A stretch of DNA of 64,000 nt from Gammaproteobacteria bacterium (GTDB taxonomy: Bacteria > Pseudomonadota > Gammaproteobacteria > Steroidobacterales > Steroidobacteraceae), in NCBI GenBank assembly GCA_005878835.1, contig VBMV01000062.1:40796-104795 (forward strand), read 5' to 3'. Positions within the stretch are counted from its first letter, which is position 1. The number at the start of each line of letters is the position of its first letter. A program made the translations under genes and the position numbers. Positions 1,985 to 8,320 of this stretch are shown here, in pieces. Below the pieces are notes generated by a model. The model was not told the DNA's origin, made no database searches, and worked only from the letters and a program-made list of their open reading frames with translations.

Positions 1985-3805
1985 ATGCTCACCCACCTGC
2001 AGATCCGCGACTTCGCCATCATCGATTCGGTGGAGCTCGAGTTGCGTCGCGGCCTGACGGTGCTCACCGGCGAGACCGGCGCGGGCAAATCGATCCTGGT
2101 GGACGCGCTGCAGCTGCTCGCCGGAGGCCGCGCCGGCGCCGAGGTGGTGCGCCACGGCGCCGAGCGCGCGGAAGTGTCTGGCACCTTCGAGCTCGGTGAG
2201 GCCCCGCCCGAGCTGCGGCAGTTGCTCGAGGAGCAGTCCGTCAGCGGCACCGGCGAGCTCACCGTGCGCCGGGTGGTGGCAGCGGATGGACGCTCGCGCG
2301 CCTACCTGAACGGGCAGACGGTGCCGGTACAGCTGCTGCGCGAGGCCGGCAACATCCTCATCGATATCCACGGCCAGCATGAATTCCAGTCCCTGACGCG
2401 CAGCGCCGCGCAGCGCACGTTGCTCGATGGCTACGGCTCCCTCACCGGGCTCACCACCCAGGTCGGTACCGCCCACCGGGAGTGGCTCGAGCTCCTCAAC
2501 CGCACCCTGGAACTGGAGAGCAAGGCGCGCGACCGCGACACCCGCCTCGAGCTGCTGCGCTATCAGGCGCAGGAGCTGCAGGCCCTGCAGCTGAAGGCCG
2601 GCGAGATCGACGCGCTCGGCGAGGAACGCGCGCGGCTCGCCAACCGCGGGCGGCTCGCGCAGGGTGCGCAGACGGCCCTCGCGGAGCTGTACGAGAACGA
2701 AGCCGCGAGCGCGCATGCCGGCGTGAGCCGCGCGCTGCAGGCCCTGCGCGGACTCGCGGCCCTCGATGGCAAGCTCGCCGCCGTGCTGCCGATGCTGGAG
2801 GAAGCCTCGATTCAGGTGCGCGAGGCGGCGCGTGAGCTGGAACGCTACCGCGAGACCCTCGACGTCGACGCGGCGCGCCAGGACGAGGTCGAAAGACGCC
2901 TGGCGGCGATCGAGGAGCTCTCGCGCAAGCACCGCGTGGCCGCGGGCGAGCTCGATGAGCGCGCGCGGCAGCTGGCGGTGGAGCTGGCGACGCTCGAGCG
3001 CGCCGAGACCGACCTCGCCACGCTGCGCAAGGAGCTGGCCGCGGCGCTGCAGGCCTACCGCGCGCAGGCCCAGGAGCTGTCCGGCAGGCGGGCCGGCGCC
3101 GCGGCGGCCCTCGCCCGGGACATCTCGGCGCGTATGCAGACGCTCGGCATGTCCGGCGGGCGCTTCGAGGCGGACGTGACCCAGCAGGGCAACGCCGATC
3201 CCACCGAACACGGCATCGACCAGATCGAGTTCCGGGTGTCCGCCAACCCGGGCCAGCCGCCGCGCGCGCTCGCCAAGGTCGCCTCCGGCGGCGAGCTGGC
3301 GCGCCTGTCCCTCGCCGTGCAGGTGGCGTGCAGCGCCGATGCGACGCGCTGCATGGTGTTCGATGAGGTCGACGCCGGGATCGGCGGCGCGGTGGCCGAG
3401 ATCGTCGGCCGCGAGCTGCGCGCGCTCGGCGCAGGCGCCCAGGTGCTGTGCGTGACGCATCTGCCGCAGGTGGCCTGCCAGGCGCATCACCAGCTGCGCG
3501 TCACCAAGCTCACCGACGGGCGCACCACGCGCATCACGGTCAGCGAGCTCAGCGCCAAGGATCGCGTCGAGGAGCTGGCGCGCATGCTGGGCGGCATCGA
3601 GGTGAGCGGCAAGGCGCGCGAGCACGCCCGCGAGATGCTGCACGCCGCCACCCTGGTGCCGGGCAAAGCGGTGCGCGGGGAAGCCGACCACGCCCCGCCC
3701 GCCTCCGGGGAGACGACCCCGGTGGCCACGCTGCGCGGTGTGGTGCCGCCCGCCGAGGACGAGACCGTGCGACAGCCGCGGCCGCCCGCCGCCCGGGGCC
3801 GCTAG
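1985..3805 (+). CDS. recN: DNA repair protein RecN
   Basis: MLTHLQIRDFAIIDSVELELRRGLTVLTGETGAGKSILVDAL, with C-terminal VFDEVDAGIGG and VTHLPQVA. Confidence 0.96.
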   Translation: MLTHLQIRDFAIIDSVELELRRGLTVLTGETGAGKSILVDALQLLAGGRAGAEVVRHGAERAEVSGTFELGEAPPELRQLLEEQSVSGTGELTVRRVVAADGRSRAYLNGQTVPVQLLREAGNILIDIHGQHEFQSLTRSAAQRTLLDGYGSLTGLTTQVGTAHREWLELLNRTLELESKARDRDTRLELLRYQAQELQALQLKAGEIDALGEERARLANRGRLAQGAQTALAELYENEAASAHAGVSRALQALRGLAALDGKLAAVLPMLEEASIQVREAARELERYRETLDVDAARQDEVERRLAAIEELSRKHRVAAGELDERARQLAVELATLERAETDLATLRKELAAALQAYRAQAQELSGRRAGAAAALARDISARMQTLGMSGGRFEADVTQQGNADPTEHGIDQIEFRVSANPGQPPRALAKVASGGELARLSLAVQVACSADATRCMVFDEVDAGIGGAVAEIVGRELRALGAGAQVLCVTHLPQVACQAHHQLRVTKLTDGRTTRITVSELSAKDRVEELARMLGGIEVSGKAREHAREMLHAATLVPGKAVRGEADHAPPASGETTPVATLRGVVPPAEDETVRQPRPPAARGR

Positions 3806-5477: not shown

Positions 5478-5945
5478 ATGACCAAAGACGCGCCAGCGCC
5501 CCGACTGATCGCCGAGAACCGCAAGGCGCGCTTCGACTACTTCATCGAGGAGCGCTACGAGGCGGGACTGGCGCTGCAGGGCTGGGAGGTCAAGGCCATG
5601 CGCGCCGGGCGCGCGCAGCTGCAGGAAGCCTATGTCTACCTGCGCGGCGGCGAGGCGTTCCTCATCGGCGCGCACCTCTCACCCCTGCCCACCGCCTCCA
5701 CGCACGTGACGCCCGACCCGGTGCGCACCCGCAAGCTGCTGCTCAAGCGCAGCGAGCTGCAGGGACTGATCGGCGCGGTGGAACGGCGCGGCTACACGAT
5801 CGTGCCGCTGGAGCTGTACTGGAAGAACGGCCGCGCCAAAGTGCAGGTCGGGCTCGCCAAGGGCAAGAAGCAGCACGACAAGCGCGCGGTGCAGAAGGAG
5901 CGCGACTGGCAGCGCGACAAGGCACGCCTGTTGCGACGCGGCTGA
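5478..5945 (+). CDS. smpB: SsrA-binding protein SmpB
   Basis: [40 protein letters not shown]; immediately upstream of ssrA. Confidence 0.96.
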
Positions 5946-5996: not shown

Positions 5997-6639
5997 GGGG
6001 GCGACCGGTTTCGACGCGGGTTGCGAACCTTCAGGGGCGTACCGAGGTGCAGTGCCCTCGTTAATCCTGCTGCAAATCATAGTTGCCAACGACGACAACT
6101 ACGCTCTGGCTGCCTAACCGCAGCTGACCTCTGACCGGCTCGTGCCTGTGCGACCGAATCAGGGGACGCGCTCACAGGATCGCGCTCCGGCGTGCGACAG
6201 GCCGGTGCGTTAAGAGTCACTGTCCGCTGGCGTTGCGTCTTCCCTGCTCCTCGGGTAGCGCCGCGCGAGAAACAAAGAGAGAGCTACGTACGTAGATCCT
6301 GAAGTCTAGGACTTGCGGACGGGGGTTCGATCGAGGGTCGCGCCAAATCGCGAGGTTTGGCTGATAACGGAGCTCACATCGGCGAAACCTGACGGCGCCT
6401 CTCAACAGGGGCGGCATGGCAACGTCGAGGGGTAGGAAGAGGGCCAACCTCAGGCCTGCCCTGTAGAGACTCATAGACCCGCCGACGGCACAGCGCCTGG
6501 GCGGGCACTAGGATCCAGCCGGCTGTGGCGGCTGGATAACACGCTCCGCGTCCACGCACCGCCTTCAGCGGCGCGCGGACGAAGGCATAGTCCAGCCCGC
6601 GGCGAAAGCCACGGATGTGCTGTCCCCCCGCCTCCACCA
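5997..6639 (+). ncRNA. ssrA: tmRNA (ssrA), interrupted in the T-loop: exon 1 5997-6331, exon 2 6623-6639
   Basis: 5' end GGGGGCG pairs over 7 bp with 3' CGCCTCC followed by ACCA (6629-6639). Tag ORF at 6085-6117: GCC AAC GAC GAC AAC TAC GCT CTG GCT GCC TAA = ANDDNYALAA*. T-stem GGGGG (6321-6325) pairs with CCCCC (6624-6628) only after removal of 6332-6622. Confidence 0.95.
6332..6622 (+). mobile_element. Group I intron (291 nt) in the tmRNA T-loop
   Basis: 5' exon ends in U (6331) and intron ends in G (6622), as group I splicing requires. P1: exon GGUUCGAU (6324-6331) with IGS GUCGCGCC (6337-6344), one mismatch, terminal U.G. P7-like GACU (6468-6471) with AGUC (6589-6592) inside an S-like AAGGCAUAGUCC. 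P8 CCCGCC/GGCGGG. P9 GGC-GAAA-GCC GNRA hairpin. Splicing restores T-loop TTCGATT. Confidence 0.88.
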
Positions 6640-6644
6640 ACCGG

Positions 6645-6674
6645 CGGTTCCCGGCCCTAAGCGGCCGGGAACCG
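6645..6674 (+). terminator. Strong GC-rich hairpin just after tmRNA 3' end
   Basis: CGGTTCCCGGCC-CTAAGC-GGCCGGGAACCG, a perfect 12-bp stem starting 6 nt past the CCA. No U-tract, so terminator or processing role is uncertain. A second hairpin GCCCGGGC-CGAAC-GCCCGGGC follows at 6677-6697. Confidence 0.5.
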
Positions 6675-6811
6675 ATGCCCGGGCCGAACGCCCGGGCGCC
6701 ATCGCCAGCCGCGCGGCGCGCATAATTCCTCAGATCCACCAGATTCTCGGCCTGTGCTTTGACAGGCATTGCAGGCAGAATCCTGAGAACCCAGCAAATG
6801 CATGGGGTTGC

Positions 6812-7261
6812 GTGCCTCCAAGGCAACTCTCCGACAGCGAGGCGGCGTATCTGGCCGGGATCATAGACGGCGAGGGCACCATTACGCTCACGAGGACGCA
6901 TCGGGGCGAGAATCGTCGCCCGGTGGTAAGCATCAGCAGTACGGAGTTGCCCCTGCTTTTTTATGTGCGGTCGGTGGTAGGCGCAGGAAGGATTACGAGG
7001 AAGGTCCGCGCGCATGAGCACCACTCACCCAGCTTCGCTTACACCATCTCCAGCCGGCAGGCCCTAACGTTGCTGGGTCGGGTCTCGCCGTATCTTCGCA
7101 CGTACAAGGCCGGGCGCGCCTGCCTTCTCCTCGAGGAGTACGTCCGCGTTACCCCTCGGAATGGACGCTATACACCGCACCAGCGCGCCGCACGTCAAGC
7201 CTTTGAGCAGCGCTTCTTTGCCAACTCAGTGCGCGCAAAAGCGCACATGAGGCAACTCTAG
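6812..7261 (+). CDS. LAGLIDADG family homing endonuclease (single motif)
   Basis: In ORF 6617..7261: LSDSEAAYLAGIIDGEGTITLTRTHRGENRRPVVSISSTELPLLFYVRSVVGAGRIT..YTISSRQALTLLGRVSPYLRTYKAGRACLLLEEY. GTG at 6812 is the likely start; the frame stays open back to GTG 6617. Confidence 0.85.
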   Translation: MPPRQLSDSEAAYLAGIIDGEGTITLTRTHRGENRRPVVSISSTELPLLFYVRSVVGAGRITRKVRAHEHHSPSFAYTISSRQALTLLGRVSPYLRTYKAGRACLLLEEYVRVTPRNGRYTPHQRAARQAFEQRFFANSVRAKAHMRQL

Positions 7262-7395
7262 CCGCGTCTGTCGCCCGTTAGCTGTTCTGGGCGTGAGATG
7301 TACAGCTCAGGTGTCACCCCACTGTCGCCGCCTGCCGCGCGGTGCGCTGCTGCGCGGGCTGGACTGAGGCGCGCCATCGCGGCGCCGCCTGAGCG

Positions 7396-8320
7396 TCAGG
7401 AATCGCGCCGCCCGTCCAGCGAGACGAGCCTCCCATACAGGTCCGGCCGCCGGTCGCGGAACACGAACCAGTTGTCGCGCAGCCGCGCCGTGGCCTCCAG
7501 GTCGAAGACGTGGATCAGGAGCGCATCGCCCTCCTCGGGCGCCTCGGCGACTTTCGCGCCCATGGCGTCCGCGATGAACGATGAGCCGTAGAAGCGGATG
7601 TACAGCCCCTGCGGGTCCTGCAGCGAGCGCTCCAGTCCATAGCGGTTGGCGGCGAGCAGCGGGATGAGGTTGGCCGCCGCGTGTCCCTGCTGGGTGCGCT
7701 GCCAGTGCTCGCGCGAGTTCACCGGCAGTGCCGGAGGCGGCTCGGTGCCGATCGCGGTCGGAAACAGCAACAGCTCCGCCCCCATGAGCGCCATGACGCG
7801 CGCGGTCTCGGGAAACCACTGATCCCAGCAGATGCCGACGCCGAGGCGCGCGAAACGCGTGTTCCAGACTCTGAATCCCGTGTCGCCCGGGGAGAAGTAG
7901 TTCTTTTCCTGGTAGCCCGGCCCATTGGGAATGTGCGACTTGCGGTACACGCCGAGGTTGGTGCCGTCGGCGTCCAGGATCGCGATCGAATTGAAGCAGG
8001 CGGGACCCGCGCGCTCGAAGAAGCTGATCGGCAGCACCACGCCGAGCTCGCGCGCCAGGGGTGCGAAGTGAGCGATGGCGCGGTTGTCGGCGGCCGCACG
8101 CGCCAGACCCAGGTGACGCGCGTCCTGCTCGATGCAGAAATACGGCGTCTCGAACAGCTCGGGCAGGAGGATGACCTGCGCGCCCCGCGCGGCCGCCTGG
8201 CGCACCAGCTGCTCAGCCCGGGCGATGTTGCCCTCGATGTCCCAGTCGCACGCCATCTGGATGGCGGCCACCGTCACCGCTCGGGGCGTGCGCCGGAAAT
8301 GCTCAGGGCCTCCAGGCATC
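7396..8320 (-). CDS. Carbon-nitrogen hydrolase, N-carbamoylputrescine amidase-like
   Basis: VAAIQMACDWDIEGNIARAEQLVRQAAARGAQVILLPELFETPYFC..RKSHIPNGPGYQEKNYFSPGDTGF..GVGICWDQWFPE. Confidence 0.85.

Follow-up and report, generated by a model that had tools for sequence, protein, structure and literature searches.

In a 64,000-nucleotide stretch of a high-GC gammaproteobacterial MAG (G000, contig C122; the whole stretch is referred to as the window), we found a free-standing LAGLIDADG endonuclease gene that lies outside the intron of an interrupted ssrA (tmRNA) gene, past the CCA end, as the initial annotation had described. The layout on which that annotation built its proposal, an ORF-less intron beside a free-standing endonuclease gene, is present in the window and recurs in several phyla. 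We consider collaborative homing to be the probable explanation of this layout: judged from sequence comparison, the enzyme would cut intronless ssrA near the T-loop, and the intron and the endonuclease gene would be copied together.

The ssrA gene of the window and its intron

The features around ssrA are collected in Table 1. Rfam RF00023 (tmRNA) matches positions 6004-6333 with an E-value of 2.6e-59 and the match stops within the T-loop, whereas an ARAGORN run did not detect the ssrA gene of the window. The insertion point lies after TTCGAT in the T-loop (TTCGAT^T), and the boundaries follow the rules for tmRNA T-loop introns, with a U-G pair in P1, a G at the 3' end of the intron and a T-arm that is reconstituted when the insert is taken out. 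The known introns at T-loop position 7 of tmRNA (Williams 2002; PMC11915505) share the site, the size (293 nt on average) and these boundary rules with the insert. The Rfam model RF00028 did not detect the intron of the window even at an E-value of 1, and a covariation fold was used for the intron in its place. The consensus fold of 23 homologous inserts with their exon flanks comprises 71 pairs; compensatory changes occur in 42 of these, and the U-G pair of P1, at the 5' splice site, does not vary among the 23 aligned inserts. Judged by this covariation, the helices are group I-like and the insert is a group I intron. Positions 6332-6622 contain no ORF of note, and the earlier description of a 291-nt intron without a reading frame of its own thus holds, now with covarying helices and the invariant P1 pair. 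Promoter and terminator scans of 6600-7400 found nothing, and a plasmid search gave no match.

Table 1. Features of the window around ssrA, numbered from the first letter of the window.
Feature	Positions	Strand	Basis
smpB, tmRNA partner protein	5478-5945	+	Pfam PF01668, E 2.8e-57
ssrA (tmRNA) 5' exon, ending ...GGGGGTTCGAT in the T-loop	5998-6331	+	Rfam; 5' strand of the acceptor from sequence
Group I intron (by covariation), 291 nt, ORF-less, T-loop position 7	6332-6622	+	reconstituted T-arm and acceptor stem; covariation
ssrA 3' exon TCCCCCCGCCTCCACCA, 17 nt	6623-6639	+	complementary to the T-stem and acceptor strands of the 5' exon
GC-rich hairpin after the CCA end, no T-run; probable ssrA terminator	6646-6673	+	read from sequence; terminator scan negative
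Segment with the endonuclease gene, absent in sister genome G034	6672-7318		pairwise alignment
Free-standing LAGLIDADG endonuclease gene (predicted), GTG start, 149 aa	6812-7261	+	Pfam, PHROG, model, fold, profile alignment

The protein is a predicted homodimeric LAGLIDADG endonuclease

The endonuclease gene starts 172 nt past the tmRNA CCA and 190 nt past the 3' splice site. The reading frame of 6617-7261 given initially is indeed open; its first part (6617-6811) is an in-frame extension across the tmRNA 3' exon that the gene does not require, and the start is the GTG at 6812. Pfam LAGLIDADG_3 matches the protein at the cut-off (22.9 bits, cut-off 22.5), and the best family match is PHROG 5046 (phrog_5046, E 6.9e-24). 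This family is named 'HNH endonuclease' in phages, whereas the match in the window is a LAGLIDADG protein by sequence and fold, and the HNH label appears to be wrong. The AlphaFold model of the 149-aa protein has a pLDDT of 93.1, and its nearest folds in the PDB by Foldseek are I-MsoI, I-CvuI and I-CreI (E 1e-7, TM 0.6-0.7), with the alpha-beta-beta-alpha-beta-beta-alpha arrangement of I-CreI. There is a single LAGLIDADG motif per chain; its AGIIDGEGT stretch, in which the helix carries the terminal acidic residue, is invariant across 29 relatives, as is the lysine K99. In I-CreI, the lysine of the KQKQAN stretch and the second acidic residue are catalytic. In the profile alignment, K99 matches the KQKQAN lysine of I-CreI-type chains, and the invariant motif E of the family aligns with the I-CreI acidic residue. 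The three structural neighbors thus share the fold, the one motif per chain and the aligned active-site residues with the window protein, but they are encoded in 23S rRNA introns and are only 16-22% identical to it. From the model and the alignment, the product of 6812-7261 is predicted to be a LAGLIDADG homing endonuclease that acts as a homodimer; the close members of its family are found at ssrA.

Degeneracy of the gene, which had been raised as a possible objection, was not found: the frame is open, and comparison with the closest homologue (G021) gives pN 0.18 against pS 0.75 (pN/pS 0.24), which indicates a gene under purifying selection. That the gene is an inactive leftover kept by chance would suit the many relatives that are truncated or contain stops; given the open frame, the low pN/pS and the invariant motif residues in the window, we regard it as extremely improbable.

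Relatives of the endonuclease at ssrA

Among 85,000 species genomes, 39 relatives were found, and at 32 of these loci a tmRNA lies within 3 kb of the endonuclease gene (Rfam); the 3' exon could be placed in nearly all of the 32, with the endonuclease gene beyond it. The ssrA-adjacent relatives (40-79% identity) come from Pseudomonadota, Bacillota, Nitrospirota and other bacteria and lie outside the ssrA gene, on the same strand in Pseudomonadota and Nitrospirota and tail-to-tail in Bacillota. Twelve of 258 Gammaproteobacteria have a match; apart from the window, ssrA adjoins it in most, and the rest are on short loci or close to the end of a contig. When 20 genomes or virus records with the gene were searched with a profile, each had it at a single site, and this site was at ssrA in 20/20. 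More distant relatives, with less than about 40% identity, are found at other places, as in a phage set and in L047, where the gene is beside 16S rRNA. In two Bacillus ssrA genes (L024, L027), the acceptor end of the 3' exon reads ACTA and not ACCA, so that CCA is not fully encoded.

In a tree of 66 sequences, the same-strand proteobacterial genes, including that of the window, and the convergent Bacillota genes form two groups. The exceptions are L039, a same-strand gene within the Bacillota group, and L013 and L014, convergent genes beside intronless ssrA within the proteobacterial group. Orientation therefore switches inside clades, and the association of the gene with ssrA is not one frozen arrangement; the tree is unrooted and is read here without a direction of change between layouts.

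Several other layouts occur in the family. In three phage contigs forming one clade (L079, L081, L083), the gene is inside the ssrA intron and antisense; this T-loop intron (tmRNA strand 2826-3530) separates the two halves of the T-arm by 668-675 nt. L034, a deltaproteobacterial MAG, likewise has the gene within its ssrA intron, here in sense orientation and between both P7 strands; in its sister L039 the gene lies outside the intron. A degenerate copy is found within the 511-nt intron of L044. Because of the precedent of intron-encoded genes, the intron-internal members may be expected to target the intron site. In two virus contigs, L190 (2920-3565) and L191 (2960-3440), the ssrA gene is permuted and intronless, and the endonuclease gene lies in the intervening sequence of the permuted tmRNA, immediately past the acceptor end (in L191 the permuted tmRNA was read by eye). 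In phage L192 (2914-3410), the start codon of the homologue directly follows the CCA of a tRNA-Ser gene.

The gene also stands beside intronless ssrA in L013 and L014 of the candidate phyla radiation (for L014 this affiliation is deduced from its position in the tree and its small genome), where the two genes are tail-to-tail, in phage contigs L080 and L082, and in G346. Since several relatives adjoin intronless ssrA, the enzyme is not strictly dependent on the intron and can persist without it; by these cases it would also home to ssrA lacking an intron. The initial annotation had named relatives that carry the gene without the intron in unrelated loci as evidence against its reading. The first half of this was seen at the intronless ssrA genes, and the second was not: no close relative sits at an unrelated locus.

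Gain and loss in the genus of the window

Within the genus of the window, 10/28 ssrA genes contain the intron, scattered on a tree of smpB and ssrA that demands at least seven changes of intron presence, of which starred branches make six unavoidable. The gene, or a remnant that can still be recognised, is found in 3/10 intron-bearing and 1/18 intronless genomes (p 0.12, an underpowered comparison). An intact gene is present in two genomes, the window and G021; G035 keeps two gene fragments, a C-terminal stretch of the gene was seen by eye in the flank of G027, and the intronless G003 keeps a remnant. The intron of G034 is 96.6% identical to that of the window, and the endonuclease gene is absent there (Table 1). 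Taken together, the pattern looks like the cycle of gain, fixation and decay of homing genes.

Between the window and G021, pS is 0.75 for the endonuclease gene and 0.41 for the flanking CN_hydrolase gene, with an amino-acid identity of 77% for both, and GC3 is 72% in the endonuclease gene against 92% in smpB. Because pS is above that of the flanking gene and GC3 is below that of smpB, we suggest that the endonuclease gene may have arrived horizontally, from outside, although codon bias and saturation limit this comparison. In Bacillota, endonuclease and intron distances correlate beyond the ssrA exon distance (partial r 0.62, p 0.0005); at nine same-strand loci the corresponding correlation is not significant (partial r 0.10).

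Co-occurrence of gene and intron in Bacillales

We searched 349 Bacillales genomes for the gene with a profile and for the intron with an intron-core pattern, and found the gene or a remnant in 53 and the intron pattern in 82. Both occur in 46 genomes, the gene only in 7, the intron only in 36 and neither in 260 (odds ratio 47, p 2e-27). A stricter recount with weak and false matches removed gives 44, 5, 37 and 263 in the same order (p 9e-28); it leaves out the weak matches G142, G279 and G427, which are different proteins or far from ssrA. A separate scan showed that 81 of the 82 intron-pattern genomes have no uninterrupted ssrA; the exception is G418, whose pattern match is a false positive, its ssrA being uninterrupted. 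These genomes are mutually related, and the p-values therefore overstate the evidence, for which the independent support is the recurrence in other phyla. The co-occurrence of intron and gene expected from the initial annotation is thus pronounced in Bacillales and weak in the genus of the window. Counted from the introns, 44/81 Bacillales ssrA introns (54%) share their genome with the gene or a remnant of it, which nearly always lies a short way downstream and outside the intron. Many copies are truncated or contain stops. By this sample, an external gene would be more common in Bacillales than one within the intron. An altered T-loop in gene-bearing intronless ssrA was considered as a form of target-site immunity and dropped, because its sequence, TTCGACT, is the common intronless T-loop of Bacillales.

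The main rival to collaborative homing is that the enzyme spreads itself alone by targeting a site within the ssrA 3' end or immediately past it, with the intron as an independent guest that happens to use the same conserved T-arm or as a hitchhiker in the copied tract; the only differences between the two readings are where the cut falls and whether an intron prevents it. The genes beside intronless ssrA in bacteria and phages, those in permuted ssrA, the single case after tRNA-Ser and the remnant in the intronless genus member all fit this reading, but the odds ratio of 47 for the intron, and the presence of family members within the intron in two separate clades, speak against it, and we consider it unlikely. 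The co-occurrence would also be expected if the protein were a maturase that aids splicing and therefore stays close, and some LAGLIDADG proteins are maturases, with the bI3 maturase (2ab5) and I-AniI among the distant matches. Many introns, however, have no enzyme gene or only a remnant, as in the 36 intron-only Bacillales genomes and G034, the enzyme gene also occurs beside intronless ssrA, and a purely trans-acting helper need not adjoin the intron. A maturase is a less likely reading than homing, and we give it very little credence.

In 38/46 genomes with both, the gene is found downstream of the intron core at a distance of 188 to 1317 nt and is always convergent. In four others (G258, G351, G212, G387), the gene is convergent but 6-41 kb from the ssrA intron, and these gaps probably represent insertions of elements at the 3' end of ssrA, although no attachment repeats were found at the far side of the four loci. 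Since ssrA is a known island site, such distances would also suit an integrase-type island attached at the ssrA 3' end, with the enzyme gene and the intron as its cargo. The same may be said of L173, L179 and L080, in which 18-26 nt of the ssrA 3' end are present a second time, close behind the enzyme gene. Nevertheless, no repeat of the ssrA 3' end of at least 12 nt occurs within about 3.5 kb in the window, and there is none at nearly all other loci; direct repeats were found at only three endonuclease loci, and no integrase-like ORF was seen by eye between or right after the repeat copies, so that the pair of a direct repeat and an integrase gene that marks such islands was not seen. In several phyla, moreover, the gene is found at the same short distance. 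Island cargo is therefore, like the maturase, a less likely reading, and we hold it to be very unlikely. The second copies (L173, 1930-1957; L179, 1904-1931; L080, about 3410-3440) may mark the end of an old island or a scar left by repair of the cut. A separate case is L188 (G119, contig C10), where more than 30 nt of the intron 3' end and 3' exon recur 1.7 kb downstream, as would be expected after integration of an element into an intron-bearing ssrA.

Discussion

Under collaborative homing, the enzyme would recognise the conserved T-arm DNA of intronless ssrA, which is partly palindromic and therefore suits a homodimer, and would cut it where the intron is inserted (TTCGAT^T) or close by. 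An intron of 291 nt would interrupt the recognition site and protect the carrier allele. When carrier DNA meets an intronless allele, repair of the break would copy the adjacent enzyme gene along with the intron and the 17-nt 3' exon; once fixation is reached, the enzyme gene would decay or be lost by deletion and the intron would stay. We infer the T-arm as the target because the endonuclease gene lies on the 3' side of the T-arm in every ssrA architecture, and the cut site, the protection by the intron and the joint conversion are likewise our predictions. Collaborative homing is favoured by the single placement at ssrA, the association with the intron in Bacillales, the recurrence in either orientation, the family members within ssrA introns, the distance correlation in Bacillota, the scattered intron in the genus, the signs of horizontal arrival and the aligned active-site residues. 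Against it stand the genes at intronless and permuted ssrA and after a tRNA-Ser, the non-significant correlation at the nine same-strand loci, and the observation that most intron-bearing genomes of the genus lack an intact enzyme gene.

Collaborative homing itself is known from phages, where F-CphI lies beside the psbA intron of cyanophage S-PM2 and further cases come from a T3/T7-like phage and the ICP1 terminase (PMC3984707, PMC10448857); how this layout arises is unclear (PMC10448857). The phage loci share with the window the ORF-less group I intron that adjoins a free-standing homing endonuclease gene, and at these loci the intron site is the presumed or demonstrated target of the enzyme, while at ssrA this target is predicted. 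The phage cases concern protein genes and HNH, Endo VII-like or GIY-YIG enzymes; the system of the window differs in that it involves a bacterial chromosomal RNA gene, a LAGLIDADG enzyme with predicted cleavage, and several phyla. Group I introns in ssrA are likewise known, and what appears to be new is the homing gene outside the ssrA intron: the initial annotation knew of no such arrangement for bacterial ssrA, and the papers that we consulted contain no report of one.

A recent survey (PMC11915505, 2025) counted homing genes inside 36/883 ssrA introns (4%), compared with 54% of archaeal rRNA introns. It counts homing genes only inside the intron and mentions none outside, and a survey confined to introns would not count the genes described here, because they sit outside. 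The adjacent gene may account for part of the shortage of homing enzymes inside ssrA introns. Extending this beyond the window, we lean towards the view, with only a little more confidence than doubt, that a cross-phylum endonuclease family specialised on the ssrA 3' end drives the spread of ssrA introns in trans from a position directly outside the gene, that this explains part of the scarcity of internal enzymes, and that all stages of a proposed pathway to mobile introns, namely the enzyme alone, the enzyme with a separate intron and the enzyme inside the intron, are preserved.

So far, descriptions of collaborative homing have come from a few phage loci; the layout reported here recurs across bacterial chromosomes and sits on a ribosome-rescue gene. 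All intermediate layouts are found in one enzyme family, with a scattered and recent distribution, and the model and its direction can therefore be tested with many natural allele pairs.
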